Assembly (NCBI GenBank): GCA_030867875.1
Contig: JAOWCC010000064.1
Span: 39,144,802 to 39,208,801 of the forward strand
From: Actinernus sp. WN-2022
Lineage: Eukaryota > Cnidaria > Anthozoa > Actiniaria > Actinernidae
Length of the DNA: 64,000 nucleotides
Direction: 5' to 3'
Notes under the pieces: generated by a model
What the model was told of the DNA's origin: nothing
The model's database searches: none
The model's input: only the letters and a program-made list of their open reading frames with translations
Shown: one piece after another, positions 5,921 to 47,648 of the stretch
How positions within the stretch are numbered: the stretch's first letter is position 1
Layout of the letters: the number at the start of each line of letters is the position of its first letter
Program-made: the position numbers and the translations under genes

Positions 5921-7265
5921 CTGAAAGATGCCAAACACTCTAAACATGGTTTAACTGATAAACAATACTACACTATTTTTAATAATCTCCAGGGAGAAAC
6001 AGTGCAGCCATTACTGGTATAGACGTCTATCTTAGTTGCACTTTTCTTAATGGCTATTACCCCTTCACTAGAGGCTGTAAGGCTTTGTGCAGAATATAAG
6101 TATACGTAGATACGATTAGGTGAAATAGAAAAAAATAACAAGAAACAATTGGATGAAAACAGGATGGAATTGCGCAGAGGCAACAATAGCCTGTTGGCTT
6201 TCGTGTCAACCTCAGTTTATCTAGTGAAAAACGTTACAGTACATACCTAAACAAAAAGACAAACCTATTTAACATAAATTATCTAGATTGTTGAACTAAC
6301 ATGCTATAAATGAGGCAGAAAAACTTTGTAAGAAATAATGATATGATGAGTATGAATTTTAGAAATGATAATGTAGATTTAACTAAAATACAACTTTTAA
6401 AAACGAGACATGTATTACATGTATGTTTCAAAAAGCATTGCTTGCGCCATTTTCCCGCGTGCTCTCCCTTAATTGGTAAAGATGGGACGGCTTGTAGCCT
6501 AGAATACGCTAGAAAAACATTGAGTTAACCGTTCTTGGAGAAAAGAAAGGAAATGATACACTTAGTTGCAACAACTGCGGATCTTAATTAGTATGTAGAG
6601 CATATTACAAGGTGGTATATAGATATGAAGGTTATTCTTTAGAGTAAAAAAATCACAAGTGAGTGTAACGAACGAGTGAAATATTGTGTACCCGAGAGGA
6701 TAAACTTTTTTTCTTTATTTATTATATGGAGGATAGTATTTTACTGAGAAATAAACCACTCGTAGAACTCATACGAAACTACATCCGGGTATCAAGTGGC
6801 GTATTTTCGATATCATCACTAGTGAAAATATTGATGACGTCACGTTTGCCGCCTTTTGAACTACAAAGATGGCGACAGTTTTTGTGAAAATCACAGAGGA
6901 AGATCTGTAAACAGCTTAAATGAGCTGCATGACAATGAATATTCCGAACACAAACAGCGAAATACGATCTAAAACTCTCTATATAAATATTTTCTCGACT
7001 GCAACGAATAGACAAGAAAACCCGATGAAAAACCCCAGAACAGCTTAGAAAGATCACGAAGAAGTTTGTACTGACAGTAAATAAAATGAATAGATAAGAG
7101 TTCTTAGAGCAGTTTAATGGTTAACACCAAGCAAATGTGAAAAATGACTAACAAACTGTGTATAGACAATCATAATAACACGCACGACATAATATGCAAA
7201 ACAAATTCAATATGTATATGTAGAGATAACAAGGAAAATATTACATATCATTTCAATGAAGCATT
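5921..7265. other. Intron or intergenic DNA of the dead receptor locus
   Basis: AT-rich, no domain-bearing exon seen between the two dead Ig exons other than repeats. Confidence 0.4.
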
Positions 7266-9840: not shown

Positions 9841-10107
9841 AATACTCCAGTTTCCTATTCGAAAATTACCGCTGAATGCAATGACTACAGACGCATGTAC
9901 TCAGGCTTAGCCTTATTGTGAAGTTAAACATTCATAAATACCAGCGAGAAGGTGGGCTATTTACAACTCTGCGTATTGTTGTAGTTTCGCATTTTGCACC
10001 TCGCTGGTATTTAAGAATGTTTAACTTCAGAATGAGGCTAAGTCTGAGTACATGCGTCTGTAGTCATTGCATTCAGCGGTAATTTTCGAATAAGAAACTG
10101 GACTATT
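9841..10107. mobile_element. Foldback MITE, family F, copy 1
   Basis: Nearly full-length palindrome with ends AATACTCCAGTTTC and GAAACTGGACTATT. Internal boxes TTACCGCTGAATGCAATGA and TACCAGCGAGAAGGTG occur in both orientations. The same family is at 47382-47648 and 61199-61471. Confidence 0.9.
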
Positions 10108-12372: not shown

Positions 12373-12374
12373 TA

Positions 12375-12547
12375 CAATTGCGGACATGAGTTGTTGGGAC
12401 ACTCCAGAAAAAAACGCATTTTTCAGCCGTGCGGTCTTTTTCCTCCTCCTCTCCTCCCTCAATGTTGGGACTCAACAGGCCCAATCGTTCTTCACAACAT
12501 TGGGGAAGGAAGAGGCGAAAGTGTCTCAACACTCGTGTCCGCAATTG
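12375..12547. repeat. J module 1 (double-ended terminal module)
   Basis: 173 bp with about 29-bp imperfect inverted ends (CAATTGCGGACATGAG outward left, CTCGTGTCCGCAATTG right) and an inner imperfect inverted repeat around CAATGTTG/CAACATTG. TA precedes it (target duplication) and TA follows it. It contains both transposon ends, so alone it resembles a MITE. Confidence 0.9.
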
Positions 12548-12909
12548 TATTTAATTGGAATGAGTGGTATGCTGAGTAAGCACATTTTCTGAAATAACGG
12601 GGTTGAAGCCGTTGCGTTCGGTTAAAAACGATAAAATAAATCTTTCGATGAGATATAACATGTTTTTTATGAAGCTGTAATGAATAGGTCCAGTTATACA
12701 AAAAATAAAATAAATCAAGTTTTACCTGCGATACAAGGCTCAGGGGAATTGATATTGAAAAATAAATAACAAGCTTTTAAGAAGAGCGGGAAATTTTAAA
12801 CTTCCACATAATATGTCGCGACACGGGTTGTACATTTCATTTGAGCCGTCTGAGACCCAACACTCCTTCGAATGTTCAAGCATTGATCGCTTATTAGACT
12901 GTGTATATA

Positions 12910-14303
12910 ATGGAGGAAGAAATAGGTGATTTGAATGGCGAAGCTCGAGTAGTTGGTAGGGAGGCGGACGAGGTTGATGTTGAACGCCGACGAGATGACG
13001 CCACATTAACGCGAAGAGAGGTGAGGTCCGTTTATCTCATCACCTACAGCCACGCTAATCTTGACTTGGTTCCGACGCGGGAAGATTTTTCAAGAATAGT
13101 CTTAGACAGTTTTGAGAACTCTGACAGAGCTTCACGCTCTCGTGTAATTCAGTGGGTTTGTAGTCAAGAACAGCATACCAATGGGGGAGTTCACTACCAC
13201 ATGGCAGTGAATCGAAGTTAAATTGTCGGCGTCGTTGGCTGAAAGTAAGAAAGCACCTTGACCAGAACCATAACGTTAAGGTTAATTTTAGCAGTCGTCA
13301 CGTCAATTATTACTCAGCCTGGCATTACACTACTAAGGAAGACTCCAGTTATGTCCAATCCGAGAATCATACCGATCTTGCTAATGCAGAGGAGCCCGCC
13401 ACAGCCCAAGCAAGTACCGCTCGCTCTCGTACTGGGAGAAAGCGCAGCCGTAAAACCCGCTTAACAGTATTTGATGTCTCCCAAATAGCCGTGGAAAAGG
13501 GTATAAAAACTCGATTGCAGCTTGTAGCCCTTGCTAGCCGACAAAAAAAGGAAGGGAAAACCGATTTGGCTGAATTCATTGCAAACAGTGGAAGCAAAGC
13601 AGTCGCTGAAGCACTTAGCGTAGGATGGGAAATGGAGGAGGCCGAATCGCAACTAGAAAGAAGTAGATTGACCAGAATTGAAATCTTATACAAGCACCAA
13701 GGCGGAGAATGTGTTCAAGGATGTGATGGGCGATGGCTTACGATGGCTGAAGATGTTCTAAGTCGCAACGGAATTGCTAAGACTGACTTCGCTGAAGCCA
13801 TCCGTACGGTTCTGCAAAAAGGGCGAGGAAAATATCGCAACATTTTCATTAAGGGCCCTGCTAATTGCGGAAAAACATTCATTTTGAATCCATTGAACAA
13901 GGTGTACACAACCTTTACCAACCCTGCGACTACGACCTTTGCCTGGGTGGGAGCAGAATCGGCGGAAGCCGTATTCTTAAATGATTTTCGCTGGTCGAGA
14001 CAAATCATACCCTGGCATGATTTCCTCCTCCTTTTGGAAGGACAAGTAGTCCATTTGCCAGCACCAAAGACTCATTACATGCGTGACATTGCCTTCACGA
14101 AGGACACACCCATTTTTTGTACCGGCAAAGAAGAGCTGTCCCTCGTTCGCGGCGGTGTTTTGGACGAGACGGAAACAGAGATGATGCGCGTTCGCTGGAG
14201 AGTGTTTTCCTTTCACTCTCAAATACCTGAGGGGGAGCAGCTTGCAGTACCATCCTGCTCTCGGTGCTTTGCCGAACTTGTCTTCTGCCAAGCCGTAGCG
14301 TGA
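12910..14303 (+). pseudogene. CRESS-type replication initiator Rep (HUH + SF3 helicase), frameshifted, unit 1
   Basis: The first frame starts at ATG 12910 and runs 103 codons to TAA at 13219-13221. It holds HUH motif I (LITYSHA, residues 43-49) and motif II (GGVHYHMAV, His95 and His97). The reading continues in the next frame down (-1) without a stop to TGA at 14301-14303. That frame holds the catalytic-tyrosine motif III (YYSAWHYTTKED, Tyr codon 13326-13328), then an SF3 helicase with Walker A GPANCGKT (13854-13877), Walker B VFLNDFRW (13971-13994), motif C PIFCTGKEE (14109-14135) and arginine-finger-like MMRVRW. HUH plus SF3 is the plan of rolling-circle initiators of CRESS-DNA viruses and parvoviruses. 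The break lies between motifs II and III and is shared by all four copies. It is either an inactivating indel or a site of -1 frameshifting. An apparent start at GTG 13491 is not credible because it would drop motif III. Confidence 0.85.
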
Positions 14304-14321
14304 TATATAGTTGGTGTGAGA

Positions 14322-14718
14322 TGACAACGGTTCACCACACGGTTCACCAATCTATTCGATAATGCTGACCAAAGTCACGGGAAATTCTCTCTTAAACCAA
14401 TTTACATCGCTAACAGATCCGGTATATTTTGCATTTCTGTATTATTAATGCCTCTAGCGATCATTTTCGCGTACTGTGACGCGTTTCACATGGTGAACCG
14501 TAGTTTGAAAGAAAAGTTAAGTAGTTTTTTTTATTGCAACGGTTCACCATGCGAATCGTGTTGCAGTGCGCGACTATTTTCGCTAGAGTCATTAATAATA
14601 CAGAAATGTAAAATATACCGGATCTGTTAGCGATGTAAATTGGTTTAAGAGAGAATTTCCCATGACTTTGGTCAGCATTATCGAATAGATTGGTGAACCG
14701 TGTGGAGAACCGTTGTCA
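14322..14718. repeat. Large palindrome with six iteron-like boxes, unit 1 (candidate Rep origin)
   Basis: A 397-bp imperfect inverted repeat with arms of about 180 bp and a loop of about 37 nt at 14502-14538. CGGTTCACC occurs at 14328-14336, 14340-14348 and 14540-14548. Its complement GGTGAACCG occurs at 14492-14500 and 14692-14700, and a one-mismatch form at 14704-14712. The boxes are symmetric: two at each foot, one each side of the loop. It begins 18 bp after the Rep stop. Rep proteins bind such iterons next to their origin, so an origin is a reasonable inference; a nested foldback MITE is the alternative, though no target duplication is visible. Confidence 0.8.
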
Positions 14719-15105
14719 CGTGACAGAAGGCCTAAATTCAACCTTACTGGGGGAGATAGATGTAACCTGTTCTTTTAGTAAACCATTTTTTCTCTCCTTC
14801 CAAGCCTTAATTAAGTCAGGGTAAGTCTCTGCTGGGAACAGTTTGACAGGATTTCTTTACAGTAATCGTTTGTTTAAGTTCACATTAATTTCAAAATGAA
14901 TCAGTGAATTAAAGAGACAGACTTTATTCATAACAACTTATACGTACAAGATTTGATGTAAGATTTCAATTATGTCTCATTTTAAATACAATCGTCACTG
15001 AACTAGCGAGTCATTATCGATTTTTGAAGAACATAAAGCACTATTGTGATGTTTTTTCTTCCGTGACATTAACAAAACTGCCGATTTGACAACCGTATTG
15101 CACAT
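14719..15105. other. Non-coding spacer between palindrome and transposase, unit 1
   Basis: About 390 bp without coding signal. TTTATT near 14930 reads AATAAA on the minus strand, about 175 bp past the transposase stop, and could be its polyadenylation signal. The same spacer is present in each unit. Confidence 0.4.
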
Positions 15106-16191
15106 TTAGTATTTTATACGGCCCCCTTTTTTCTCGATGACTTGTGAAATCCTTTTACTCATCGAGGCTATTAAATTGTCGATTGTTTGAATAGGTACGG
15201 CACGAATAGTGTTGATAACCCGGCATTGGAATTCTTTATACGATTCCTTCGTTATTTTTTGTAATATTGCATTTCTCTTCAAATTCTTACCAACAATATG
15301 GAAGAGATTTTCAATGGGATTAAGATCAGGGCTTCGCGGAGGTATTTTCATCAATGTGGAATTGATACGCGCCATGACTGCCCTGGCCAGGGCTGAATTT
15401 TGTGAGGGATCTCCATCTTGAAGCCATAATCGGCTATCTCCCTTGTTCGCAGCTCGAAACATTTTTGGAAAATGTTCCTCGATGAAGGAAGCAAAGTAGG
15501 CGCCACACATGCGTTCATACGGTTCGCACGCAATCACACCTCTGTTGTACGATATAGCGACGATAAGTTTTACCAGTTTGCCACCTGTCCCCGTTTTACT
15601 TCCTTTCGCTACACAGCCAATCTTCAGGCCTTCGTTTTTCTTTCTCCAAATGCGTGCTCTTGGGGCTCTAGCCTGGTCTAAAGGATTACTCTTGTATGCG
15701 AAACTAGTACCATCCAGGTAAAACGCCATATCTCTTGTCCAAATTTTTGAGCTGTAATTTTTTTGCATAGTCTTTGCAAATTTTACCCTATTCCGCAGAT
15801 CATTCTTTGTCATCAGGCCTTTCTTCCTGGATTGAAGATAAAAGTAGCCCTGGCGATTTAAGAAACGACGCACGGTTCTGTTGGAAACGTTTTCATGACT
15901 AATCCCTGCTTCATGCATATGTCTGTTACATGAAAAGTTTCCTTCTGTCTCTCTCAGTGTTTGTAAAGCTCTCTTTAATCTTCTTTGCTGGCGTTCACTT
16001 AACTTTACTCCTCTATTCGTCGGTGTTTTGGGAGATTTCTTCTTCGGCAAAACCTCATTTCGTATTCTACTCACACTTGCTCGCGATATGTTGCACATTT
16101 TCGCTACTTTACGAATGGACAGCCCTTGAACACGGCATAAATAATACACGCGACCCCGTGTCACACTGCCGATAGCAGACTTGAAAACCAT
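15106..16191 (-). CDS. Tc1-like DD34E transposase, unit 1
   Basis: An intact 361-residue frame, the usual size for Tc1-family transposases. Residues about 11-46 form a first helix-turn-helix (GLSIRKVAKMCNISRASVSR) and about 64-115 a second, the paired-type DNA-binding region of Tc1 proteins. The catalytic domain has Asp160 (FYLDGTSF), Asp259 (LQDGDPSQNS) and Glu294 (SPDLNPIEN), with 34 residues between the last two, i.e. DD34E. The family cuts at terminal inverted repeats and inserts at TA, which fits the TA duplication around the array. It is convergent to Rep, separated from it by the palindrome and spacer. With all catalytic residues present it may be active. Units 2 and 4 carry intact copies; unit 3 is broken. 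Confidence 0.93.
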   Translation of the reverse strand: MVFKSAIGSVTRGRVYYLCRVQGLSIRKVAKMCNISRASVSRIRNEVLPKKKSPKTPTNRGVKLSERQQRRLKRALQTLRETEGNFSCNRHMHEAGISHENVSNRTVRRFLNRQGYFYLQSRKKGLMTKNDLRNRVKFAKTMQKNYSSKIWTRDMAFYLDGTSFAYKSNPLDQARAPRARIWRKKNEGLKIGCVAKGSKTGTGGKLVKLIVAISYNRGVIACEPYERMCGAYFASFIEEHFPKMFRAANKGDSRLWLQDGDPSQNSALARAVMARINSTLMKIPPRSPDLNPIENLFHIVGKNLKRNAILQKITKESYKEFQCRVINTIRAVPIQTIDNLIASMSKRISQVIEKKGGRIKY

Positions 16192-16433
16192 TATTTGTCC
16201 CCAGTGTCGAGTAAGTTTTTTTTCTCAATACAAAATGTATATTTCTAAAATAATACAGTCTTTTAGCTACGTATAGGATATTTATACGACTGTAAAACTG
16301 CAAATAGGGAGGTTTCGCAGGGGTCATTCACTAGTACGTAGCGTTTACGTGAACTGTTATCGCTGATATTCACGTCATGACTGCTAACATTAATAGCTTG
16401 TCAATCAACACCCGCACCAGTTGATAGCATAGA
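16192..16433. other. Spacer upstream of transposase, before J module 2
   Basis: Short AT-rich stretch that must contain the transposase promoter. It ends GCATAGA directly before J, so the inner J boundary has GA and not TA on its left side. Confidence 0.4.
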
Positions 16434-16606
16434 CAATTGCGGACATGAGTTGTTGGGACACTCCAGAAAAAAACGCATTTTTCAGCCGTGCGGTCTTTTT
16501 CCTCCTCCTCTCCTCCCTCAATGTTGGGACTCAACAGGCCCAATCGTTCTTCACAACATTGGGGAAGGAAGAGGCGAAAGTGTCTCAACACTCGTGTCCG
16601 CAATTG
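16434..16606. repeat. J module 2
   Basis: Same 173-bp double-ended module as J1, here inside the array with GA to its left and TA to its right. Confidence 0.9.
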
Positions 16607-16968
16607 TATTTAATTGGAATGAGTGGTATGCTGAGTAAGCACATTTTCTGAAATAACGGGGTTGAAGCCGTTGCGTTCGGTTAAAAACGATAAAATAAAT
16701 CTTTCGATGAGATATAACATGTTTTTTATGAAGCTGTAATGAATAGGTCCAGTTATACAAAAAATAAAATAAATCAAGTTTTACCTGCGATACAAGGCTC
16801 AGGGGAATTGATATTGAAAAATAAATAACAAGCTTTTAAGAAGAGCGGGAAATTTTAAACTTCCACATAATATGTCGCGACACGGGTTGTACATTTCATT
16901 TGAGCCGTCTGAGACCCAACACTCCTTCGAATGTTCAAGCATTGATCGCTTATTAGACTGTGTATATA

Positions 16969-18362
16969 ATGGAGGAAGAAATAGGTGATTTGAATGGCGA
17001 AGTTCGAGTAGTTGGTAGGGAGGCGGACGAGGTTGATGTTGAACGCCGACGAGATGACGCCACATTAACGCGAAGAGAGGTGAGGTCCGTTTATCTCATC
17101 ACCTACAGCCACGCTAATCTTGACTTGGTTCCGACGCGGGAAGATTTTTCAAGAATAGTCTTAGACAGTTTTGAGAACTCTGACAGAGCTTCACGCTCTC
17201 GTGTAATTCAGTGGGTTTGTAGTCAAGAACAGCATACCAATGGGGGAGTTCACTACCACATGGCAGTGAATCGAAGTTAAATTGTCGGCGTCGTTGGCTG
17301 AAAGTAAGAAAGCACCTTGACCAGAACCATAACGTTAAGGTTAATTTTAGCAGTCGTCACGTCAATTATTACTCAGCCTGGCATTACACTACTAAGGAAG
17401 ACTCCAGTTATGTCCAATCCGAGAATCATACCGATCTTGCTAATGCAGAGGAGCCCGCCACAGCCCAAGCAAGTACCGCTCGCTCTCGTACTGGGAGAAA
17501 GCGCAGCCGTAAAACCCGCTTAACAGTATTTGATGTCTCCCAAATAGCCGTGGAAAAGGGTATAAAAACTCGATTGCAGCTTGTAGCCCTTGCTAGCCGA
17601 CAAAAAAAGGAAGGGAAAACCGATTTGGCTGAATTCATTGCAAACAGTGGAAGCAAAGCAGTCGCTGAAGCACTTAGCGTAGGATGGGAAATGGAGGAGG
17701 CCGAATCGCAACTAGAAAGAAGTAGATTGACCAGAATTGAAATCTTATACAAGCACCAAGGCGGAGAATGTGTTCAAGGATGTGATGGGCGATGGCTTAC
17801 GATGGCTGAAGATGTTCTAAGTCGCAACGGAATTGCTAAGACTGACTTCGCTGAAGCCATCCGTACGGTTCTGCAAAAAGGGCGAGGAAAATATCGCAAC
17901 ATTTTCATTAAGGGCCCTGCTAATTGCGGAAAAACATTCATTTTGAATCCATTGAACAAGGTGTACACAACCTTTACCAACCCTGCGACTACGACCTTTG
18001 CCTGGGTGGGAGCAGAATCGGCGGAAGCCGTATTCTTAAATGATTTTCGCTGGTCGAGACAAATCATACCCTGGCATGATTTCCTCCTCCTTTTGGAAGG
18101 ACAAGTAGTCCATTTGCCAGCACCAAAGACTCATTACATGCGTGACATTGCCTTCACGAAGGACACACCCATTTTTTGTACCGGCAAAGAAGAGCTGTCC
18201 CTCGTTCGCGGCGGTGTTTTGGACGAGACGGAAACAGAGATGATGCGCGTTCGCTGGAGAGTGTTTTCCTTTCACTCTCAAATACCTGAGGGGGAGCAGC
18301 TTGCAGTACCATCCTGCTCTCGGTGCTTTGCCGAACTTGTCTTCTGCCAAGCCGTAGCGTGA
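16969..18362 (+). pseudogene. CRESS-type Rep (HUH + SF3), frameshifted, unit 2
   Basis: Same two-frame structure as unit 1, with the frame break at the same base (first-frame stop at 17278-17280). It differs from unit 1 by Val for Ala at residue 12 (GEVRVV), shared with unit 3. HUH, Tyr motif, Walker A and B are all unchanged. Confidence 0.85.
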
Positions 18363-18380
18363 TATATAGTTGGTGTGAGA

Positions 18381-18777
18381 TGACAACGGTTCACCACACG
18401 GTTCACCAATCTATTCGATAATGCTGACCAAAGTCACGGGAAATTCTCTCTTAAACCAATTTACATCGCTAACAGATCCGGTATATTTTGCATTTCTGTA
18501 TTATTAATGCCTCTAGCGATCATTTTCGCGTACTGTGACGCGTTTCACATGGTGAACCGTAGTTTGAAAGAAAAGTTAAGTAGTTTTTTTTATTGCAACG
18601 GTTCACCATGCGAATCGTGTTGCAGTGCGCGACTATTTTCGCTAGAGTCATTAATAATACAGAAATGTAAAATATACCGGATCTGTTAGCGATGTAAATT
18701 GGTTTAAGAGAGAATTTCCCATGACTTTGGTCAGCATTATCGAATAGATTGGTGAACCGTGTGGAGAACCGTTGTCA
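18381..18777. repeat. Iteron-bearing palindrome, unit 2
   Basis: Copy of the 397-bp palindrome of unit 1, with all six CGGTTCACC-type boxes kept. Confidence 0.8.
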
Positions 18778-19164
18778 CGTGACAGAAGGCCTAAATTCAA
18801 CCTTACTGGGGGAGATAGATGTAACCTGTTCTTTTAGTAAACCATTTTTTCTCTCCTTCCAAGCCTTAATTAAGTCAGGGTAAGTCTCTGCTGGGAACAG
18901 TTTGACAGGATTTCTTTACAGTAATCGTTTGTTTAAGTTCACATTAATTTCAAAATGAATCAGTGAATTAAAGAGACAGACTTTATTCATAACAACTTAT
19001 ACGTACAAGATTTGATGTAAGATTTCAATTATGTCTCATTTTAAATACAATCGTCACTGAACTAGCGAGTCATTATCGATTTTTGAAGAACATAAAGCAC
19101 TATTGTGATGTTTTTTCTTCCGTGACATTAACAAAACTGCCGATTTGACAACCGTATTGCACAT

Positions 19165-20250
19165 TTAGTATTTTATACGGCCCCCTTTTTTCTCGATGAC
19201 TTGTGAAATCCTTTTACTCATCGAGGCTATTAAATTGTCGATTGTTTGAATAGGTACGGCACGAATAGTGTTGATAACCCGGCATTGGAATTCTTTATAC
19301 GATTCCTTCGTTATTTTTTGTAATATTGCATTTCTCTTCAAATTCTTACCAACAATATGGAAGAGATTTTCAATGGGATTAAGATCAGGGCTTCGCGGAG
19401 GTATTTTCATCAATGTGGAATTGATACGCGCCATGACTGCCCTGGCCAGGGCTGAATTTTGTGAGGGATCTCCATCTTGAAGCCATAATCGGCTATCTCC
19501 CTTGTTCGCAGCTCGAAACATTTTTGGAAAATGTTCCTCGATGAAGGAAGCAAAGTAGGCGCCACACATGCGTTCATACGGTTCGCACGCAATCACACCT
19601 CTGTTGTACGATATAGCGACGATAAGTTTTACCAGTTTGCCACCTGTCCCCGTTTTACTTCCTTTCGCTACACAGCCAATCTTCAGGCCTTCGTTTTTCT
19701 TTCTCCAAATGCGTGCTCTTGGGGCTCTAGCCTGGTCTAAAGGATTACTCTTGTATGCGAAACTAGTACCATCCAGGTAAAACGCCATATCTCTTGTCCA
19801 AATTTTTGAGCTGTAATTTTTTTGCATAGTCTTTGCAAATTTTACCCTATTCCGCAGATCATTCTTTGTCATCAGGCCTTTCTTCCTGGATTGAAGATAA
19901 AAGTAGCCCTGGCGATTTAAGAAACGACGCACGGTTCTGTTGGAAACGTTTTCATGACTAATCCCTGCTTCATGCATATGTCTGTTACATGAAAAGTTTC
20001 CTTCTGTCTCTCTCAGTGTTTGTAAAGCTCTCTTTAATCTTCTTTGCTGGCGTTCACTTAACTTTACTCCTCTATTCGTCGGTGTTTTGGGAGATTTCTT
20101 CTTCGGCAAAACCTCATTTCGTATTCTACTCACACTTGCTCGCGATATGTTGCACATTTTCGCTACTTTACGAATGGACAGCCCTTGAACACGGCATAAA
20201 TAATACACGCGACCCCGTGTCACACTGCCGATAGCAGACTTGAAAACCAT
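19165..20250 (-). CDS. Tc1-like DD34E transposase, unit 2
   Basis: Intact 361-residue copy, the same protein as unit 1, with the DD34E triad and both helix-turn-helix regions. Confidence 0.93.
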   Translation of the reverse strand: MVFKSAIGSVTRGRVYYLCRVQGLSIRKVAKMCNISRASVSRIRNEVLPKKKSPKTPTNRGVKLSERQQRRLKRALQTLRETEGNFSCNRHMHEAGISHENVSNRTVRRFLNRQGYFYLQSRKKGLMTKNDLRNRVKFAKTMQKNYSSKIWTRDMAFYLDGTSFAYKSNPLDQARAPRARIWRKKNEGLKIGCVAKGSKTGTGGKLVKLIVAISYNRGVIACEPYERMCGAYFASFIEEHFPKMFRAANKGDSRLWLQDGDPSQNSALARAVMARINSTLMKIPPRSPDLNPIENLFHIVGKNLKRNAILQKITKESYKEFQCRVINTIRAVPIQTIDNLIASMSKRISQVIEKKGGRIKY

Positions 20251-20492
20251 TATTTGTCCCCAGTGTCGAGTAAGTTTTTTTTCTCAATACAAAATGTATA
20301 TTTCTAAAATAATACAGTCTTTTAGCTACGTATAGGATATTTATACGACTGTAAAACTGCAAATAGGGAGGTTTCGCAGGGGTCATTCACTAGTACGTAG
20401 CGTTTACGTGAACTGTTATCGCTGATATTCACGTCATGACTGCTAACATTAATAGCTTGTCAATCAACACCCGCACCAGTTGATAGCATAGA

Positions 20493-20665
20493 CAATTGCG
20501 GACATGAGTTGTTGGGACACTCCAGAAAAAAACGCATTTTTCAGCCGTGCGGTCTTTTTCCTCCTCCTCTCCTCCCTCAATGTTGGGACTCAACAGGCCC
20601 AATCGTTCTTCACAACATTGGGGAAGGAAGAGGCGAAAGTGTCTCAACACTCGTGTCCGCAATTG
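20493..20665. repeat. J module 3
   Basis: Internal copy of the 173-bp double-ended module, 4059 bp after J2. Confidence 0.9.
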
Positions 20666-21027
20666 TATTTAATTGGAATGAGTGGTATGCTGAGTAAGCA
20701 CATTTTCTGAAATAACGGGGTTGAAGCCGTTGCGTTCGGTTAAAAACGATAAAATAAATCTTTCGATGAGATATAACATGTTTTTTATGAAGCTGTAATG
20801 AATAGGTCCAGTTATACAAAAAATAAAATAAATCAAGTTTTACCTGCGATACAAGGCTCAGGGGAATTGATATTGAAAAATAAATAACAAGCTTTTAAGA
20901 AGAGCGGGAAATTTTAAACTTCCACATAATATGTCGCGACACGGGTTGTACATTTCATTTGAGCCGTCTGAGACCCAACACTCCTTCGAATGTTCAAGCA
21001 TTGATCGCTTATTAGACTGTGTATATA

Positions 21028-22421
21028 ATGGAGGAAGAAATAGGTGATTTGAATGGCGAAGTTCGAGTAGTTGGTAGGGAGGCGGACGAGGTTGATGTTG
21101 AACGCCGACGAGATGACGCCACATTAACGCGAAGAGAGGTGAGGTCCGTTTATCTCATCACCTACAGCCACGCTAATCTTGACTTGGTTCCGACGCGGGA
21201 AGATTTTTCAAGAATAGTCTTAGACAGTTTTGAGAACTCTGACAGAGCTTCACGCTCTCGTGTAATTCAGTGGGTTTGTAGTCAAGAACAGCATACCAAT
21301 GGGGGAGTTCACTACCACATGGCAGTGAATCGAAGTTAAATTGTCGGCGTCGTTGGCTGAAAGTAAGAAAGCACCTTGACCAGAACCATAACGTTAAGGT
21401 TAATTTTAGCAGTCGTCACGTCAATTATTACTCAGCCTGGCATTACACTACTAAGGAAGACTCCAGTTATGTCCAATCCGAGAATCATACCGATCTTGCT
21501 AATGCAGAGGAGCCCGCCACAGCCCAAGCAAGTACCGCTCGCTCTCGTACTGGGAGAAAGCGCAGCCGTAAAACCCGCTTAACAGTATTTGATGTCTCCC
21601 AAATAGCCGTGGAAAAGGGTATAAAAACTCGATTGCAGCTTGTAGCCCTTGCTAGCCGACAAAAAAAGGAAGGGAAAACCGATTTGGCTGAATTCATTGC
21701 AAACAGTGGAAGCAAAGCAGTCGCTGAAGCACTTAGCGTAGGATGGGAAATGGAGGAGGCCGAATCGCAACTAGAAAGAAGTAGATTGACCAGAATTGAA
21801 ATCTTATACAAGCACCAAGGCGGAGAATGTGTTCAAGGATGTGATGGGCGATGGCTTACGATGGCTGAAGATGTTCTAAGTCGCAACGGAATTGCTAAGA
21901 CTGACTTCGCTGAAGCCATCCGTACGGTTCTGCAAAAAGGGCGAGGAAAATATCGCAACATTTTCATTAAGGGCCCTGCTAATTGCGGAAAAACATTCAT
22001 TTTGAATCCATTGAACAAGGTGTACACAACCTTTACCAACCCTGCGACTACGACCTTTGCCTGGGTGGGAGCAGAATCGGCGGAAGCCGTATTCTTAAAT
22101 GATTTTCGCTGGTCGAGACAAATCATACCCTGGCATGATTTCCTCCTCCTTTTGGAAGGACAAGTAGTCCATTTGCCAGCACCAAAGACTCATTACATGC
22201 GTGACATTGCCTTCACGAAGGACACACCCATTTTTTGTACCGGCAAAGAAGAGCTGTCCCTCGTTCGCGGCGGTGTTTTGGACGAGACGGAAACAGAGAT
22301 GATGCGCGTTCGCTGGAGAGTGTTTTCCTTTCACTCTCAAATACCTGAGGGGGAGCAGCTTGCAGTACCATCCTGCTCTCGGTGCTTTGCCGAACTTGTC
22401 TTCTGCCAAGCCGTAGCGTGA
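21028..22421 (+). pseudogene. CRESS-type Rep (HUH + SF3), frameshifted, unit 3
   Basis: Same structure and same frame break as units 1 and 2; Val at residue 12 as in unit 2. Confidence 0.85.
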
Positions 22422-22439
22422 TATATAGTTGGTGTGAGA

Positions 22440-22836
22440 TGACAACGGTTCACCACACGGTTCACCAATCTATTCGATAATGCTGACCAAAGTCACGGGA
22501 AATTCTCTCTTAAACCAATTTACATCGCTAACAGATCCGGTATATTTTGCATTTCTGTATTATTAATGCCTCTAGCGATCATTTTCGCGTACTGTGACGC
22601 GTTTCACATGGTGAACCGTAGTTTGAAAGAAAAGTTAAGTAGTTTTTTTTATTGCAACGGTTCACCATGCGAATCGTGTTGCAGTGCGCGACTATTTTCG
22701 CTAGAGTCATTAATAATACAGAAATGTAAAATATACCGGATCTGTTAGCGATGTAAATTGGTTTAAGAGAGAATTTCCCATGACTTTGGTCAGCATTATC
22801 GAATAGATTGGTGAACCGTGTGGAGAACCGTTGTCA
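22440..22836. repeat. Iteron-bearing palindrome, unit 3
   Basis: Copy of the 397-bp palindrome with six iteron-like boxes. Confidence 0.8.
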
Positions 22837-23223
22837 CGTGACAGAAGGCCTAAATTCAACCTTACTGGGGGAGATAGATGTAACCTGTTCTTTTAGTAAA
22901 CCATTTTTTCTCTCCTTCCAAGCCTTAATTAAGTCAGGGTAAGTCTCTGCTGGGAACAGTTTGACAGGATTTCTTTACAGTAATCGTTTGTTTAAGTTCA
23001 CATTAATTTCAAAATGAATCAGTGAATTAAAGAGACAGACTTTATTCATAACAACTTATACGTACAAGATTTGATGTAAGATTTCAATTATGTCTCATTT
23101 TAAATACAATCGTCACTGAACTAGCGAGTCATTATCGATTTTTGAAGAACATAAAGCACTATTGTGATGTTTTTTCTTCCGTGACATTAACAAAACTGCC
23201 GATTTGACAACCGTATTGCACAT

Positions 23224-24313
23224 TTAGTATTTTATACGGCCCCCTTTTTTCTCGATGACTTGTGAAATCCTTTTACTCATCGAGGCTATTAAATTGTCGA
23301 TTGTTTGAATAGGTACGGCACGAATAGTGTTGATAACCCGGCATTGGAATTCTTTATACGATTCCTTCGTTATTTTTTGTAATATTGCATTTCTCTTCAA
23401 ATTCTTACCAACAATATGGAAGAGATTTTCAATGGGATTAAGATCAGGGCTTCGCGGAGGTATTTTCATCAATGTGGAATTGATACGCGCCATGACTGCC
23501 CTGGCCAGGGCTGAATTTTGTGAGGGATCTCCATCTTGAAGCCATAATCGGCTATCTCGCTTGTTCGCAGCTCGAAACATTTTTGGAAAATGTTCCTCGA
23601 TGAAGGAAGCAAAGTAGGCGCCACACATGCGTTCATACGGTTCGCACGCAATCACACCTCTGTTGTACGATATAGCGACGATAAGTTTTACCAGTTTGCC
23701 ACCTGTCCCCGTTTTACTTCCTTTCGCTACACAGCCAATCTTCAGGCCTTCGTTTTTCTTTCTCCAAATGCGTGCTCTTGGGGCTCTAGCCTGGTCTAAA
23801 GGATTACTCTTGTATGCGAAACTAGTACCATCCAGGTAAAACGCCATATCTCTTGACTGTCCAAATTTTTGAGCTGTAATTTTTTTGCATAGTCTTTGCA
23901 AATTTTACCCTATTCCGCAGATCATTCTTTGTCATCAGGCCTTTCTTCCTGGATTGAAGATAAAAGTAGCCCTGGCGATTTAAGAAACGACGTACGGTTC
24001 TGTTGGAAACGTTTTCATGACTAATCCCTGCTTCATGCATATGTCTGTTACATGAAAAGTTTCCTTCTGTCTCTCTCAGTGTTTGTAAAGCTCTCTTTAA
24101 TCTTCTTTGCTGGCGTTCACTTAACTTTACTCCTCTATTCGTCGGTGTTTTGGGAGATTTCTTCTTCGGCAAAACCTCATTTCGTATTCTACTCACACTT
24201 GCTCGCGATATGTTGCACATTTTCGCTACTTTACGAATGGACAGCCCTTGAACACGGCATAAATAATACACGCGACCCCGTGTCACACTGCCGATAGCAG
24301 ACTTGAAAACCAT
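23224..24313 (-). pseudogene. Tc1-like transposase broken by a 4-bp insertion, unit 3
   Basis: Identical in plan to the intact copies, but four extra bases (ACTG, 23856-23859) sit at codon 152, just before the first catalytic Asp. The N-terminal frame (24313-23822) keeps both DNA-binding regions and then ends in 11 foreign residues. The catalytic part continues in another frame (23901-23224). It also has Arg for Gly at residue 251 and one silent change. The insertion explains the unit length of 4063 bp. The N-terminal piece could still bind ends without cutting, which is speculation. Confidence 0.92.
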
Positions 24314-24555
24314 TATTTGTCCCCAGTGTCGAGTAAGTTTTTTTTCTCAATACAAAATGTATATTTCTAAAATAATACAGTCTTTTAGCTACGTATAGGA
24401 TATTTATACGACTGTAAAACTGCAAATAGGGAGGTTTCGCAGGGGTCATTCACTAGTACGTAGCGTTTACGTGAACTGTTATCGCTGATATTCACGTCAT
24501 GACTGCTAACATTAATAGCTTGTCAATCAACACCCGCACCAGTTGATAGCATAGA

Positions 24556-24728
24556 CAATTGCGGACATGAGTTGTTGGGACACTCCAGAAAAAAACGCAT
24601 TTTTCAGCCGTGCGGTCTTTTTCCTCCTCCTCTCCTCCCTCAATGTTGGGACTCAACAGGCCCAATCGTTCTTCACAACATTGGGGAAGGAAGAGGCGAA
24701 AGTGTCTCAACACTCGTGTCCGCAATTG
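24556..24728. repeat. J module 4
   Basis: Internal copy of the 173-bp module; offset from J3 is 4063 bp because of the 4-bp insertion in unit 3. Confidence 0.9.
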
Positions 24729-25090
24729 TATTTAATTGGAATGAGTGGTATGCTGAGTAAGCACATTTTCTGAAATAACGGGGTTGAAGCCGTTGCGTTC
24801 GGTTAAAAACGATAAAATAAATCTTTCGATGAGATATAACATGTTTTTTATGAAGCTGTAATGAATAGGTCCAGTTATACAAAAAATAAAATAAATCAAG
24901 TTTTACCTGCGATACAAGGCTCAGGGGAATTGATATTGAAAAATAAATAACAAGCTTTTAAGAAGAGCGGGAAATTTTAAACTTCCACATAATATGTCGC
25001 GACACGGGTTGTACATTTCATTTGAGCCGTCTGAGACCCAACACTCCTTCGAATGTTCAAGCATTGATCGCTTATTAGACTGTGTATATA

Positions 25091-26484
25091 ATGGAGGAAG
25101 AAATAGGTGATTTGAATGGCGAAGCTCGAGTAGTTGGTAGGGAGGCGGACGAGGTTGATGTTGAACGCCGACGAGATGACGCCACATTAACGCGAAGAGA
25201 GGTGAGGTCCGTTTATCTCATCACCTACAGCCACGCTAATCTTGACTTGGTTCCGACGCGGGAAGATTTTTCAAGAATAGTCTTAGACAGTTTTGAGAAC
25301 TCTGACAGAGCTTCACGCTCTCGTGTAATTCAGTGGGTTTGTAGTCAAGAACAGCATACCAATGGGGGAGTTCACTACCACATGGCAGTGAATCGAAGTT
25401 AAATTGTCGGCGTCGTTGGCTGAAAGTAAGAAAGCACCTTGACCAGAACCATAACGTTAAGGTTAATTTTAGCAGTCGTCACGTCAATTATTACTCAGCC
25501 TGGCATTACACTACTAAGGAAGACTCCAGTTATGTCCAATCCGAGAATCATACCGATCTTGCTAATGCAGAGGAGCCCGCCACAGCCCAAGCAAGTACCG
25601 CTCGCTCTCGTACTGGGAGAAAGCGCAGCCGTAAAACCCGCTTAACAGTATTTGATGTCTCCCAAATAGCCGTGGAAAAGGGTATAAAAACTCGATTGCA
25701 GCTTGTAGCCCTTGCTAGCCGACAAAAAAAGGAAGGGAAAACCGATTTGGCTGAATTCATTGCAAACAGTGGAAGCAAAGCAGTCGCTGAAGCACTTAGC
25801 GTAGGATGGGAAATGGAGGAGGCCGAATCGCAACTAGAAAGAAGTAGATTGACCAGAATTGAAATCTTATACAAGCACCAAGGCGGAGAATGTGTTCAAG
25901 GATGTGATGGGCGATGGCTTACGATGGCTGAAGATGTTCTAAGTCGCAACGGAATTGCTAAGACTGACTTCGCTGAAGCCATCCGTACGGTTCTGCAAAA
26001 AGGGCGAGGAAAATATCGCAACATTTTCATTAAGGGCCCTGCTAATTGCGGAAAAACATTCATTTTGAATCCATTGAACAAGGTGTACACAACCTTTACC
26101 AACCCTGCGACTACGACCTTTGCCTGGGTGGGAGCAGAATCGGCGGAAGCCGTATTCTTAAATGATTTTCGCTGGTCGAGACAAATCATACCCTGGCATG
26201 ATTTCCTCCTCCTTTTGGAAGGACAAGTAGTCCATTTGCCAGCACCAAAGACTCATTACATGCGTGACATTGCCTTCACGAAGGACACACCCATTTTTTG
26301 TACCGGCAAAGAAGAGCTGTCCCTCGTTCGCGGCGGTGGTTTGGACGAGACGGAAACAGAGATGATGCGCGTTCGCTGGAGAGTGTTTTCCTTTCACTCT
26401 CAAATACCTGAGGGGGAGCAGCTTGCAGTACCATCCTGCTCTCGGTGCTTTGCCGAACTTGTCTTCTGCCAAGCCGTAGCGTGA
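25091..26484 (+). pseudogene. CRESS-type Rep (HUH + SF3), frameshifted, unit 4
   Basis: Same frame break as the other units. Residue 12 is Ala as in unit 1. A unique T-to-G change gives Gly for Val in the RGGVLD segment after motif C. Active-site motifs are unchanged. Confidence 0.85.
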
Positions 26485-26502
26485 TATATAGTTGGTGTGA
26501 GA

Positions 26503-26899
26503 TGACAACGGTTCACCACACGGTTCACCAATCTATTCGATAATGCTGACCAAAGTCACGGGAAATTCTCTCTTAAACCAATTTACATCGCTAACAGATC
26601 CGGTATATTTTGCATTTCTGTATTATTAATGCCTCTAGCGATCATTTTCGCGTACTGTGACGCGTTTCACATGGTGAACCGTAGTTTGAAAGAAAAGTTA
26701 AGTAGTTTTTTTTATTGCAACGGTTCACCATGCGAATCGTGTTGCAGTGCGCGACTATTTTCGCTAGAGTCATTAATAATACAGAAATGTAAAATATACC
26801 GGATCTGTTAGCGATGTAAATTGGTTTAAGAGAGAATTTCCCATGACTTTGGTCAGCATTATCGAATAGATTGGTGAACCGTGTGGAGAACCGTTGTCA
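26503..26899. repeat. Iteron-bearing palindrome, unit 4
   Basis: Copy of the 397-bp palindrome with six iteron-like boxes. Confidence 0.8.
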
Positions 26900-27286
26900 C
26901 GTGACAGAAGGCCTAAATTCAACCTTACTGGGGGAGATAGATGTAACCTGTTCTTTTAGTAAACCATTTTTTCTCTCCTTCCAAGCCTTAATTAAGTCAG
27001 GGTAAGTCTCTGCTGGGAACAGTTTGACAGGATTTCTTTACAGTAATCGTTTGTTTAAGTTCACATTAATTTCAAAATGAATCAGTGAATTAAAGAGACA
27101 GACTTTATTCATAACAACTTATACGTACAAGATTTGATGTAAGATTTCAATTATGTCTCATTTTAAATACAATCGTCACTGAACTAGCGAGTCATTATCG
27201 ATTTTTGAAGAACATAAAGCACTATTGTGATGTTTTTTCTTCCGTGACATTAACAAAACTGCCGATTTGACAACCGTATTGCACAT

Positions 27287-28372
27287 TTAGTATTTTATAC
27301 GGCCCCCTTTTTTCTCGATGACTTGTGAAATCCTTTTACTCATCGAGGCTATTAAATTGTCGATTGTTTGAATAGGTACGGCACGAATAGTGTTGATAAC
27401 CCGGCATTGGAATTCTTTATACGATTCCTTCGTTATTTTTTGTAATATTGCATTTCTCTTCAAATTCTTACCAACAATATGGAAGAGATTTTCAATGGGA
27501 TTAAGATCAGGGCTTCGCGGAGGTATTTTCATCAATGTGGAATTGATACGCGCCATGACTGCCCTGGCCAGGGCTGAATTTTGTGAGGGATCTCCATCTT
27601 GAAGCCATAATCGGCTATCTCCCTTGTTCGCAGCTCGAAACATTTTTGGAAAATGTTCCTCGATGAAGGAAGCAAAGTAGGCGCCACACATGCGTTCATA
27701 CGGTTCGCACGCAATCACACCTCTGTTGTACGATATAGCGACGATAAGTTTTACCAGTTTGCCACCTGTCCCCGTTTTACTTCCTTTCGCTACACAGCCA
27801 ATCTTCAGGCCTTCGTTTTTCTTTCTCCAAATGCGTGCTCTTGGGGCTCTAGCCTGGTCTAAAGGATTACTCTTGTATGCGAAACTAGTACCATCCAGGT
27901 AAAACGCCATATCTCTTGTCCAAATTTTTGAGCTGTAATTTTTTTGCATAGTCTTTGCAAATTTTACCCTATTCCGCAGATCATTCTTTGTCATCAGGCC
28001 TTTCTTCCTGGATTGAAGATAAAAGTAGCCCTGGCGATTTAAGAAACGACGCACGGTTCTGTTGGAAACGTTTTCATGACTAATCCCTGCTTCATGCATA
28101 TGTCTGTTACATGAAAAGTTTCCTTCTGTCTCTCTCAGTGTTTGTAAAGCTCTCTTTAATCTTCTTTGCTGGCGTTCACTTAACTTTACTCCTCTATTCG
28201 TCGGTGTTTTGGGAGATTTCTTCTTCGGCAAAACCTCATTTCGTATTCTACTCACACTTGCTCGCGATATGTTGCACATTTTCGCTACTTTACGAATGGA
28301 CAGCCCTTGAACACGGCATAAATAATACACGCGACCCCGTGTCACACTGCCGATAGCAGACTTGAAAACCAT
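27287..28372 (-). CDS. Tc1-like DD34E transposase, unit 4
   Basis: Intact 361-residue copy, same sequence as unit 1, with the DD34E triad. Confidence 0.93.
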   Translation of the reverse strand: MVFKSAIGSVTRGRVYYLCRVQGLSIRKVAKMCNISRASVSRIRNEVLPKKKSPKTPTNRGVKLSERQQRRLKRALQTLRETEGNFSCNRHMHEAGISHENVSNRTVRRFLNRQGYFYLQSRKKGLMTKNDLRNRVKFAKTMQKNYSSKIWTRDMAFYLDGTSFAYKSNPLDQARAPRARIWRKKNEGLKIGCVAKGSKTGTGGKLVKLIVAISYNRGVIACEPYERMCGAYFASFIEEHFPKMFRAANKGDSRLWLQDGDPSQNSALARAVMARINSTLMKIPPRSPDLNPIENLFHIVGKNLKRNAILQKITKESYKEFQCRVINTIRAVPIQTIDNLIASMSKRISQVIEKKGGRIKY

Positions 28373-28614
28373 TATTTGTCCCCAGTGTCGAGTAAGTTTT
28401 TTTTCTCAATACAAAATGTATATTTCTAAAATAATACAGTCTTTTAGCTACGTATAGGATATTTATACGACTGTAAAACTGCAAATAGGGAGGTTTCGCA
28501 GGGGTCATTCACTAGTACGTAGCGTTTACGTGAACTGTTATCGCTGATATTCACGTCATGACTGCTAACATTAATAGCTTGTCAATCAACACCCGCACCA
28601 GTTGATAGCATAGA

Positions 28615-28787
28615 CAATTGCGGACATGAGTTGTTGGGACACTCCAGAAAAAAACGCATTTTTCAGCCGTGCGGTCTTTTTCCTCCTCCTCTCCTCCCTC
28701 AATGTTGGGACTCAACAGGCCCAATCGTTCTTCACAACATTGGGGAAGGAAGAGGCGAAAGTGTCTCAACACTCGTGTCCGCAATTG
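28615..28787. repeat. J module 5 (right end of array)
   Basis: Final J. Its right end TGTCCGCAATTG is followed by TA and then unrelated DNA (GCACAACCC), which marks the right limit of the array and the second half of the TA duplication. Confidence 0.9.
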
Positions 28788-29152
28788 TAGCACAACCCAA
28801 GCGCAGTACAGAACAGGCTTGAGCCAGCCTCTCCCAGCCATCTCTAAGTATCGGAAATCGTGAAAAAATATTGAATTGGGCTACCTGTGAGTCCGGGAGA
28901 GTACATGGTTTCGCGGTTTAAACCGTCAAATAAACCCATAACTTGAAAAGAAAGCCCCAGGAAGTGAAGACCAAGACACGCTATTAAGCTGTTGGCTCTA
29001 CAATTTATTACATCGTTAAAAAAATACTATATTGAATACTTCACACCAAGATAGAGTCCATGACGACGGGCGTTCGTGTTTTACGGAAACTCTGACTCGA
29101 GGAAATTCGCCAAAGAAACAAATGAATCACCCAATAATTACACGTGTAATAT

Positions 29153-43798: not shown

Positions 43799-43799
43799 A

Positions 43800-46700
43800 G
43801 ACACCACGCACACTAACACATTTTCGCCGCGCACAACCCATTCACCACCACGACGCACACGAATACACATTTTATGCAAAATACGCACACTAATGAAGGG
43901 TTGGTCACCTTGACGAATTAATCAATCTCTATTTAGAGATGTATTTTTGTCAAGCCTCAGCTTGTTTCCGTCTAACAGTTCTTCTTCGTACAGCTCCTGC
44001 GGTTTCGTATTTACTTTCAGCTTTGCGTTATTATGATAACGATTAAGTTTAAGTGCGTTCATATAAGCAAAGTGTACAACATATGACTGATCAGAGGAAG
44101 TAGAATTCATTGAAGAAAGGTTCCCGATTTTCTGAGAGTTTTCATGCGAAACGTTAGCGAGAAATTTAGTCGCTTGAAAAAATGCTTCCAAACTGAAAAT
44201 GATCGGCACGTCAAAAGTGCTTTATTGTGAGATTTGCTTTTACGACCACATTACATCATATTTCGTTTCTGTAAAGTATCAAAATGCGACTAATTACTAT
44301 AAATATAAGCTATAAAATATATTGCATTGCTATAAATGCTGTGATCCTCGACAAACATGAACTTTAACGTTATTTTGTGGTTGAATTGTAAGATCTTAAA
44401 CGATCTACCACTCGAACTTTCTTTCCTCACCTAAAAAAATTGCTACCTAAGGCAATAACAAGGATCTAAAAACAAATTCAAAACTGTTATGTGGTTCGAG
44501 TATTTTTGTCGAGGATCGTTAAACTTGAGGGGCTGCTTGCACAAAGAAGTTCATTATTATACGCCGTTATCAACAGTCGGTCGCTGTTTCCTTAGAAAGA
44601 TTTGTACATAAATTATTTCAGTTTGATACACGAGTCAGCAGAGCTTTCGTACCACGCTTTTGTTACGGCAAATACGTTCAAGCAAAGAAAGATGGTTCAA
44701 CGGATTCGAATTCACCTCTCGATGCAATTCACGAAGTATTTCTTTTGAAAACAAATATGTGAATTGGCTCTAACTAGTGTATCATTTATAGTGCAATGGT
44801 AGATGGACGGAGGTAAAATATGAATATTTAAGATTTCTTCATTATAATTATTGCTGATGTTTCGATACTATACGTGGACATTACTTCGACATGAATATTG
44901 CTGATACCCGTTTCATTTCAGATATATCAACCTTAGTAATTCAACCATCGCTGTTGTTTATTTTTGAAAGCTGGGTGCAAACTCCGATTTACGTTGGTTT
45001 TACCGCGTATTAGTTGCACTAAAGGTAACTCGAAACATTTAGTTTTATCGAAGTAGCAACAATCCTCCAGTTGTCTAGCGGCGTTAGAGAGTACACAATG
45101 AACACATTTGATTATTTGAACGAACCGGCTTCAGTCGTTGATGAAATAAAACTTTGAAGTTTCGATAGAGCCGGAAGAAAGAGATATCTAATTTACAATG
45201 CTAACTAAATAGACGCGGAATTACTTCCGCCAATTTATTATGCTTGCTTCGAGATGTGATCAAGCTTTAGATTCATCTTCGACCCTAAGCAATGAAGATT
45301 CATTGAGGTTGGATTCAGTTAGTGAATCTTCCTACATGATACAGCTTTTTAAATACAATACACCGGATTCAATAGGAATCAATACGAAACACTCTAAATT
45401 CATGAAATAGAACTTTCAAGGAAAAGATATCTCATTGCAGGTATAAGTTTGAGGGCTGCCTAACGACGCAACTTCCAAAACGTTCTAAAGCTGTACCGCA
45501 CGGCATACATGATCATGTTCAGTCATATAAAAATCCCACCCCCTGTATCGGTCGACTCGGCGTGTATACAGCTATTTCAATAAAGGTTTCCGGGACAAAC
45601 GGCAAGCGACATTGCCAGACCGCAATGGATTGTGGATGTAGCTGAATGTCTGGTAAATAGACTTTTCCGCTTGGCTCAATGTTGTCCCATTTCAGATCAC
45701 GTGACCATCCCCTTGTGTATTGTTTCATTTATTTCTGGTTAACGCATGAGGAGATACGATGATATGAAATACTTCGCACAAAGAATATTATTCCACAAAG
45801 ATTTGAAATGGGACAAAATTGATCCAAGCGGAAAAGGTCTATTCATTTGTTTTTGGGTCAAAACTTTAAGACGAACAGTAATGGCCTCCTGCGAATCGAT
45901 TACACTGTAGTTTATCCGTTGCGCACAGCTGGGCAGTTTGGCCGGGACCTTTTTTGAAATAGGTGAATATTCTAGGGCTGATTAGAGTACCAAACCTGAA
46001 CTTCGTAACTATAACCACAATACCAACCACAGCTAGTTAGTTGATAGAATGTGAACAAGTGCCCAGAAAAAACCACGACAAAAAAGAAAATATACAAAGC
46101 ATTCCAAGGCTTTCATGACTAAAATTAAGTGTAAAAATGTTTTCGTTGCTATAACACACATGACTTAAAAAGAAAACGGAGACAAGAATTAAGAACTAAC
46201 GAATTCATAAAACAACAACGTATTCGGTCGCTTGGTTTCAGCTATTCTTATTCGAACATGTGAATTAGCTGGGTCCTGACTTTGATCAGCTCCTATAGTT
46301 GTTTCAGGTCCCGTTAAAAGATATAAAAACTTAAGGTGCAGTATCGAATAGCATTGTTTGATAACGCGACAAACTTCTTTATACATGCAGCCCAGTATTA
46401 ATACTACAAAAATACGTGTTTTAATATTTAGAACATTAACATCATATAAAATATATATTCATGCAAAACTATAATAATATGAAAATGTAAAAATATTTAA
46501 AAATTGTTTCTAAATTCTATCAAAATGTATTTGCTTACTACAAATTGGTTGCGTATTTATTCTACAAATACTACGAATAATTATGTCTTGCGACAGTTTT
46601 GTAATAGAAAACATTCGTAAAACAAATCTAAGAAATGAATCAACAGAATGTTGCTTTTCTTAACTTAGTCATTCAGACTGAATACATTTGGCGCATGCGT

Positions 46701-47381: not shown

Positions 47382-47648
47382 AATACTCCAGTTTCGTATT
47401 CGAAAATTACCGCTGAATGCAATGACAACAGACGCATATACGCAGGGTTAGCCTCATTCTGAAGTTAAACATTCACTAATAGCAGCGAGGTGGGCTATTC
47501 ACAACACTGTGTATTGTTGTAGTTTCACGCTTTGCACCTTCTCGCTGGTATTTAAGAATGTTTAACTTCAGAATGAGGCTAACCCTGCGTACATGCGTCT
47601 GTAGTCATTGCATTCAGCGGTAATTTTCGAATACGAAACTGGACTATT
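47382..47648. mobile_element. Foldback MITE, family F, copy 2
   Basis: Palindrome with ends AATACTCCAGTTTCG and CGAAACTGGACTATT, same family as 9841-10107. Confidence 0.9.

Follow-up and report, generated by a model that had tools for sequence, protein, structure and literature searches.

The window analysed here is a stretch of 64,000 nucleotides from the sea anemone Actinernus sp. WN-2022 (contig JAOWCC010000064.1, positions 39,144,802 to 39,208,801). It harbors a tandem array of an element in which a gene for a replication protein (Rep) is joined to a gene for a Tc1-type transposase. Self-comparison of the window resolved the segment 12375-28787 into four head-to-tail units that are 99.9% identical, with 1 to 8 bases differing between any two of them. 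The units (4059, 4059, 4063, and 4059 bp) start with the first four copies of R in Table 1 and follow the order R-Rep-P-transposase-R. R is an imperfect palindrome of 176 bp with inverted ends of about 30 bp, located between the 5' ends of the genes. P is a stretch of 397 bp, 88% self-complementary, located between the 3' ends of Rep (plus strand) and the transposase (minus strand), which converge on it. A fifth copy of the unit start closes the array, which thus consists of n units plus one extra R, with five R copies alternating with four Rep-P-transposase bodies. Its outer ends are R tips lying inside a CTAG target (TA/CAATTG...CAATTG/TA); the limits 12375-28787 coincide with the CAATTG tips and leave out the flanking TA.

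Genes of the array

The window Rep carries the motifs LITYSHA, HYH, YTTK, and GPANCGKT. HUH motifs I-III and an SF3 helicase are united in one protein in a 22-row alignment of relatives, the Pfam matches of which are weak (E<=0.1; REP_ORF2-G2P in 16/22 rows, Parvo_NS1 in 13/22, PPV_E1_C in 6/22). By fold, Rep is closest to proteins of adeno-associated virus (AAV), papilloma E1, and geminivirus proteins. Helitrons contain a Rep fused to an SF1 (Pif1-like) helicase and produce no target duplication; the SF3-type fold of the helicase and the TA duplication do not fit this group. The named relatives among the 120 matches listed come from sea anemones, corals, and one sea cucumber. No relatives of Rep were found in IMG/VR, GTDB genomes, GenBank phages, and PLSDB plasmids, and none of the transposase in IMG/VR with the alignment as query, which says little because these collections contain few eukaryotic sequences.

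In the window, Rep is not a single open frame. Uninterrupted relatives align with it in two frames that switch near position 13,215 in unit 1, and the same change is common to all four units; the array was therefore either amplified from a unit with an already broken Rep or homogenised afterwards. Elsewhere in the genome, 11 listed loci have a stop-free Rep frame of 440-509 codons.

The transposase shows a DD34E triad (D160, D259, and E294, 34 residues separating D259 from E294) that is conserved in a 23-row alignment. It matches the DDE_3 profile with 41.1 bits (cut-off 28.6), and its best PDB match is Sleeping Beauty SB100X (5cr4, E 6.2e-14). With respect to a paired N-terminal helix-turn-helix domain, the transposase scores 26.1 bits with HTH_23 (cut-off 24.6) and 29.4 bits with HTH_Tnp_Tc3_2, just below the cut-off of 31.5. 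A 4-bp insertion disrupts the copy in unit 3. Judged by its transposase, its TA duplication, and its inverted tips, the element is a member of Tc1/mariner. The transposase is usually the only gene in this group, a trait that is perhaps not defining; unlike these transposons, the present element also holds Rep. An earlier note, made from the letters of this DNA without database searches, had described a four-unit tandem array at these positions with an HUH-SF3 Rep and a DD34E transposase convergent around a palindrome. This description is confirmed, with three corrections: the broken frame of Rep, the broken transposase of unit 3, and the extra R, itself an imperfect palindrome.

Table 1. Features of the array, in positions of the window
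Feature	Position	Strand
Whole inserted array, R-(Rep-P-Tnp-R)x4 (Tnp, transposase)	12375..28787	
Left TA of target (CTAG)	12373..12374	
Right TA of target (CTAG)	28788..28789	
R copy 1, palindrome with ~30-bp inverted ends; left end is transposon tip	12374..12549	
R copy 2, inner flank GA/CAAT	16433..16608	
R copy 3	20492..20667	
R copy 4	24555..24730	
R copy 5, right end is transposon tip	28614..28789	
Rep unit 1, N-terminal HUH part to motif II, frame change near 13215	12901..13221	+
Rep unit 1, motif III and SF3 helicase part, second frame	13215..14303	+
Rep unit 2, same frame break as unit 1	16960..18362	+
Rep unit 3, same frame break as unit 1	21019..22421	+
Rep unit 4, same frame break as unit 1	25082..26484	+
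P unit 1, palindrome with CGGTTCACCA iterons, proposed Rep origin	14322..14718	
P unit 2	18381..18777	
P unit 3	22440..22836	
P unit 4	26503..26899	
DD34E Tc1-type transposase unit 1, 361 amino acids	15106..16191	-
Transposase unit 2	19165..20250	-
Transposase unit 3, 4-bp insertion, two overlapping frames	23224..24313	-
Transposase unit 4	27287..28372	-

Ends, target site, and distribution in the genome

TA/CAAT tips were found at 24 of 29 ends of arrays and single insertions. R differs between subfamilies except at this tip, and the element starts at CAAT in all 24 tip ends; the inverted ends of R measure 28-32 bp in four subfamilies, and a fifth has arms of about 60 bp. The TA is preceded by C (or followed by G on the right) in 23/24 cases, compared with 598/3682 elsewhere in the window (P 1.4e-17). 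CTAG is rebuilt in 9/9 two-ended insertions, and empty CTAG sites exist in neighbouring minisatellite repeats for the loci L045 and L006/L042 (37/37 and 34/38 letters). Inside arrays and complete copies, GA takes the place of TA next to the R tip on one or both sides in each of the six subfamilies inspected. L065 is a solo R bounded by TA at either end. Another locus, L046, has no left R; in its place stands a second copy of 81 bp of the right host flank (2669-2749 and 6994-7074), perhaps a repair product after loss of R.

Searches of the 1.39-Gb genome yielded at least 113 scored copies of the transposase and at least 146 matches to Rep. The 52 Rep rows with E<=1e-60 were used (94 weaker ones were dropped) and correspond to 32 loci; all 113 transposase rows, with two long arrays entered as spans (62 entries), correspond to 45 loci. 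A transposase lies within 5 kb at 17 of the 32 strong Rep loci, where 0.0005 per locus would be expected, and a listed Rep lies near 17/45 transposase loci. Sixteen of the 17 pairs are convergent by strand and one is permuted. An eighteenth association exists on contig C790, where the transposase is broken in each of the two units read. At L045 and, with a damaged transposase, at L043, the two genes lie together within a single R...R copy. TA-targeted integration, as proposed in the earlier note, is borne out by the end sequences and the two empty sites. The two arrangements which that note had named as speaking for a one-off nested insertion were not encountered: Rep and transposase are not always separate, and no duplicated target was seen bordering Rep by itself; the TA duplication in CTAG lies outside the array as a whole.

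Subfamilies with quite different R and P keep the order R-Rep-P-transposase-R, with a divergence of up to 53% of residues in Rep and up to 61% in the transposase. The distances of both proteins are correlated (Mantel test, r 0.836, 0/20000) among 13 pairs, a set that includes doubtful size-matched contig pairs and one near-duplicate pair. When the contigs of sizes 3947, 3810, and 4295 and the near-duplicate pair are omitted, r is 0.81 for the 9 safer pairs (8/20000) and 0.835 for the 6 pairs of this genome only (5/720). In other genomes, contigs of sizes 6287, 24302, and 612127 appear in both the Rep and the transposase lists and are presumed to be the same contigs. Pairing by size of 119 Rep with 146 transposase contigs gave 6 exact matches, while other offsets gave a mean of 1.7 and a maximum of 7. 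Since many contigs measure about 4 kb, chance matches in size are to be expected; those of 3947, 3810, and 4295 may be of this kind and are not used as evidence.

Palindrome P, arrays, and a proposed replication cycle

The sequence of P differs between subfamilies, several of which show short direct and inverted repeats (such as CGGTTCACCA, CGGTTCTCA, CGGTTCTCCA, and CGGTAAACC). Because Reps of this kind usually bind to iterons, P is the best candidate for the origin, with these repeats as candidate iterons for Rep. The commonest 9-mer of P beats 200/200 dinucleotide shuffles in the window, in L045, L046, and L047, and in the derivative L066; that of L038 beats all 200 through a microsatellite. 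A CGGTT core is concentrated in P of the window, L043, L038, L045, L046, and L066 (P 0.00014 to 0.011, uncorrected). By at least one of these tests, iterons are present in P of five of six subfamilies. The nonanucleotide TATTATTAA, found in P of the window, of L046, and of the L037/L038/L043 subfamily, is AT-rich and was dropped as a claimed conserved motif.

Fifteen further arrays were recorded, with 2 to 31 copies entered (the largest with 31 full-length rows of 42) and median spacings of 1633-4254 bp. The entered copies of each array are all on one strand, and for this reason rolling-hairpin copying of the parvovirus type was rejected as the source of the arrays. Equal spacings recur on different contigs, namely 1664-1670 bp (C1141, C540), 3710 bp (C685, C1691), and 1969-1970 bp (C888, C540, part of C1312). 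Several units are poor in genes. A 2551-bp unit without nearly all of Rep and a 1664-bp unit (at least 18 copies) without nearly all of both genes each keep R and the iteron stretch of P. Nearly all of Rep is missing from the units of an array for which 42 transposase copies are listed (read in two units, L009 and L010) and from the single insertion L007. A 1969-bp unit, L067, keeps P and shows at the position of R a weaker, different palindrome. Genome searches with R and P scored the best 40 of 172 and the best 40 of 362 candidates, respectively, and give lower bounds.

The window's P (92%) is also common to arrays of mostly ~1969-bp spacing, comprising L067, C888:62.20-62.22, C540:11.24-11.27, and C1312:78.85-78.89 Mb, and C335. 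That P is shared while the R-like palindrome of L067, the one unit read, differs suggests that P and R can be recombined. On C1706 (52.498-52.557 Mb, G000), an array spaced at ~1950 bp matched a Rep fragment only (query residues 192-266) and is possibly a further derivative.

One copy, L037, corresponds to exactly one unit opened inside the transposase gene. It contains a single R, and its flanks lack the TA tip; aligned to the L006 unit, its ends fall on neighbouring bases and have one base in common, i.e. an exact circular permutation. This structure fits a monomer circle that would have joined the chromosome elsewhere than at R. CAG flanks L037 on both sides, a possible 3-bp duplication or a chance match.

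With a probability of roughly 0.7, the array is regarded as a four-unit integrated form of a two-gene element that likely replicates as circle or concatemer by Rep at P and whose insertion via the R tips is predicted to be catalyzed by the transposase. What can be read directly from the assembled DNA is the gene pair and its order, the n+1 copies of R, the TA/CAAT tips, the CTAG target, and the presence of further copies elsewhere, in arrays, singly, and in permuted form. From Rep and the iterons, we infer that the element works like a CRESS-type replicon. Rep would bind the P iterons of a circle with one R and start rolling-circle replication, which would yield head-to-tail multimers. The transposase would then cut one R at its left tip and a second R at its right tip, and the excised R-body-R or longer arrays would be joined to CTAG with duplication of TA. 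A cut at the R of a single circle cannot yield R-body-R, so that a multimer or an earlier R-body-R insertion would be needed. Units without Rep or without both genes probably depend on proteins acting in trans, and so would the window units with their frame-broken Rep.

Several observations weigh against this interpretation. No listed transposase lies near 15/32 Rep loci; C790 is among these, and the remaining 14 are known from the listing alone. Five of the 29 ends are not tips: one runs into Ns, the left end at C1380:49.62 is rearranged, the right end on C790 lies mid-unit, and both ends of L037 are concerned. L036 fails both iteron tests, L047 fails that for the CGGTT core, L043 fails that for the 9-mer (13/200 shuffles reach its count), and the top 9-mer of L038 is a microsatellite. 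The window's R was not detected in L067, and no nick site of Rep was identified. The earlier note had suggested replication by Rep as circle or concatemer; the permuted one-unit copy and the head-to-tail arrays agree with such forms, while no extrachromosomal circle or replication product was observed and replication itself we infer from genomic copies. Arrays could also grow through unequal exchange from one R to another; the permuted copy and the equal units at loci far apart are not easily derived in this way.

Competing explanations and known systems

The element might instead be an ordinary Tc1 transposon with a captured passenger Rep, moved by cut-and-paste and multiplied by unequal crossing-over between R copies, with Rep and P taking no part in copying. 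Transposase, TA target, and inverted tips would suffice for insertion, Rep is broken in the window array, and units without nearly all of it form both the array with 42 listed transposase copies and the insertion L007. Against this stand the stop-free Rep frames at 11 loci and the divergence of Rep in step with the transposase. Moreover, even the unit that has lost both genes retains the iteron stretch of P, one unit is exactly circularly permuted with a single R, and arrays on several contigs share the same unit lengths, which makes a mere passenger unlikely. It is more doubtful still that the copies are fossils of an endogenised circular Rep virus that acquired a transposase and whose capsid was lost or never seen. 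The likeness of the HUH-SF3 Rep to AAV, papilloma E1, and geminivirus proteins would suit such an origin, as would the E1-type cressviruses with capsids and the high-copy integrations described from sea anemones in the available passages of Buck et al. (2024 preprint, PMC11071296). Both genes and the same cis parts recur in divergent subfamilies, which argues against it. Furthermore, every open reading frame of at least 80 codons in unit 1 overlaps Rep or the transposase, and tblastx of the remaining DNA of the unit against five other units was empty with a working positive control. No third conserved frame emerged (no capsid profile search was run), and since no capsid gene was seen, the element is not filed as a virus of Cressdnaviricota or Parvoviridae.

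Two further explanations concern the window in particular. A Tc1 element may have landed once by chance in a Rep-bearing sequence, with later duplication of the composite. This would account for the window alone and is scarcely compatible with 17 co-localised loci in subfamilies that differ by up to 53% in Rep and up to 61% in the transposase, or with the three contigs of other genomes, of presumed identity, that occur in both protein lists. An assembler that multiplied a single unit is an equally remote explanation: the 99.9% likeness of the units would fit, whereas unit 3 has private differences and its 4-bp insertion, the array ends in clean TA/CTAG junctions, and arrays of other unit lengths exist elsewhere in the genome.

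Apart from the array, the window contains an unrelated palindrome of ~270 bp resembling a miniature inverted-repeat transposable element in three copies that are ~90% alike and each 82-85% self-complementary (9841-10107, 47381-47648, and 61199-61471). It also holds a 23-bp satellite of ~52 copies (49101-50294) and a cell-adhesion-like gene with Ig and FN3 (DSCAM-type) exons on the minus strand (41246-60573).

Going beyond the window, we lean, with somewhat less assurance, towards a new class of self-replicating eukaryotic transposon. Its circles and concatemers would arise by Rep and iterons, its pasting into CTAG would be of the Tc1 type, and gene-less satellites would be amplified in trans. 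If true, this would be a rolling-circle counterpart of Polintons, and its gene-less satellites with just the two cis palindromes would spread genome-wide as satellite-like arrays. Eukaryotic cut-and-paste transposons rely on copying by the host; Rep and a candidate origin would supply a copy mechanism of the element's own, which would explain long, homogeneous, satellite-like arrays at many sites. The family would thereby connect the integration of transposons and the origin of satellite DNA with replication of the single-stranded-DNA-virus type. The hypothesis is testable at once, since its genes, ends, target, and candidate origin are each located in the sequence.

Mobile elements joining an integration enzyme to replication genes of their own are known from Polinton/Maverick (a protein-primed polymerase with a retrovirus-like integrase) and Teratorn (a herpesvirus genome with piggyBac), neither of which unites Rep with Tc1. 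Tc1/mariner elements such as Sleeping Beauty share with the Actinernus element the DD34E transposase, the TA duplication, and inverted ends. Unlike them, it possesses Rep and an iteron palindrome, has at each end a whole palindrome with two tips, forms arrays with n+1 R, and targets CTAG. The E1-type cressviruses of sea anemones resemble it in the HUH-SF3 Rep, the E1-like helicase in cnidarian data, and high-copy rearranged integrations. Their contigs differ by their capsid genes, and the available passages mention no transposase, 'transpos' there denoting retrotransposon-like host sequence and a reference title (PMC11071296). DENSOV_HM of Hydra (Repbase), likened here by description alone, is an integrated virus-like cnidarian element with an NS1/E1-like protein, for which the available passages mention no transposase (PMC3198968).

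The earlier note had known of no described element with a CRESS-type Rep and a Tc1 transposase in this layout, which calls for one correction. A precedent for Rep with transposase exists in a transposon of the truffle Tuber melanosporum, which contains a geminivirus-like Rep open reading frame and two transposase frames (Liu et al., 2011, PMC3198968). No further joining of the two was found in the literature searched, which excluded Repbase and bioRxiv preprints outside PMC. Elements with Rep and transposase are hence a thinly known kind with one printed precedent found. The truffle element likewise has Rep-like and transposase frames between terminal inverted repeats (37 bp) and is a multi-copy eukaryotic element. 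As portrayed in the available passages, it differs by a geminivirus-type Rep, two damaged transposase frames without a stated family, no obvious target duplication, and interspersed copies (PMC3198968). By this description, the Actinernus element is set apart by its TA/CTAG targets, its palindromes R and P, its arrays, and its permuted copy.

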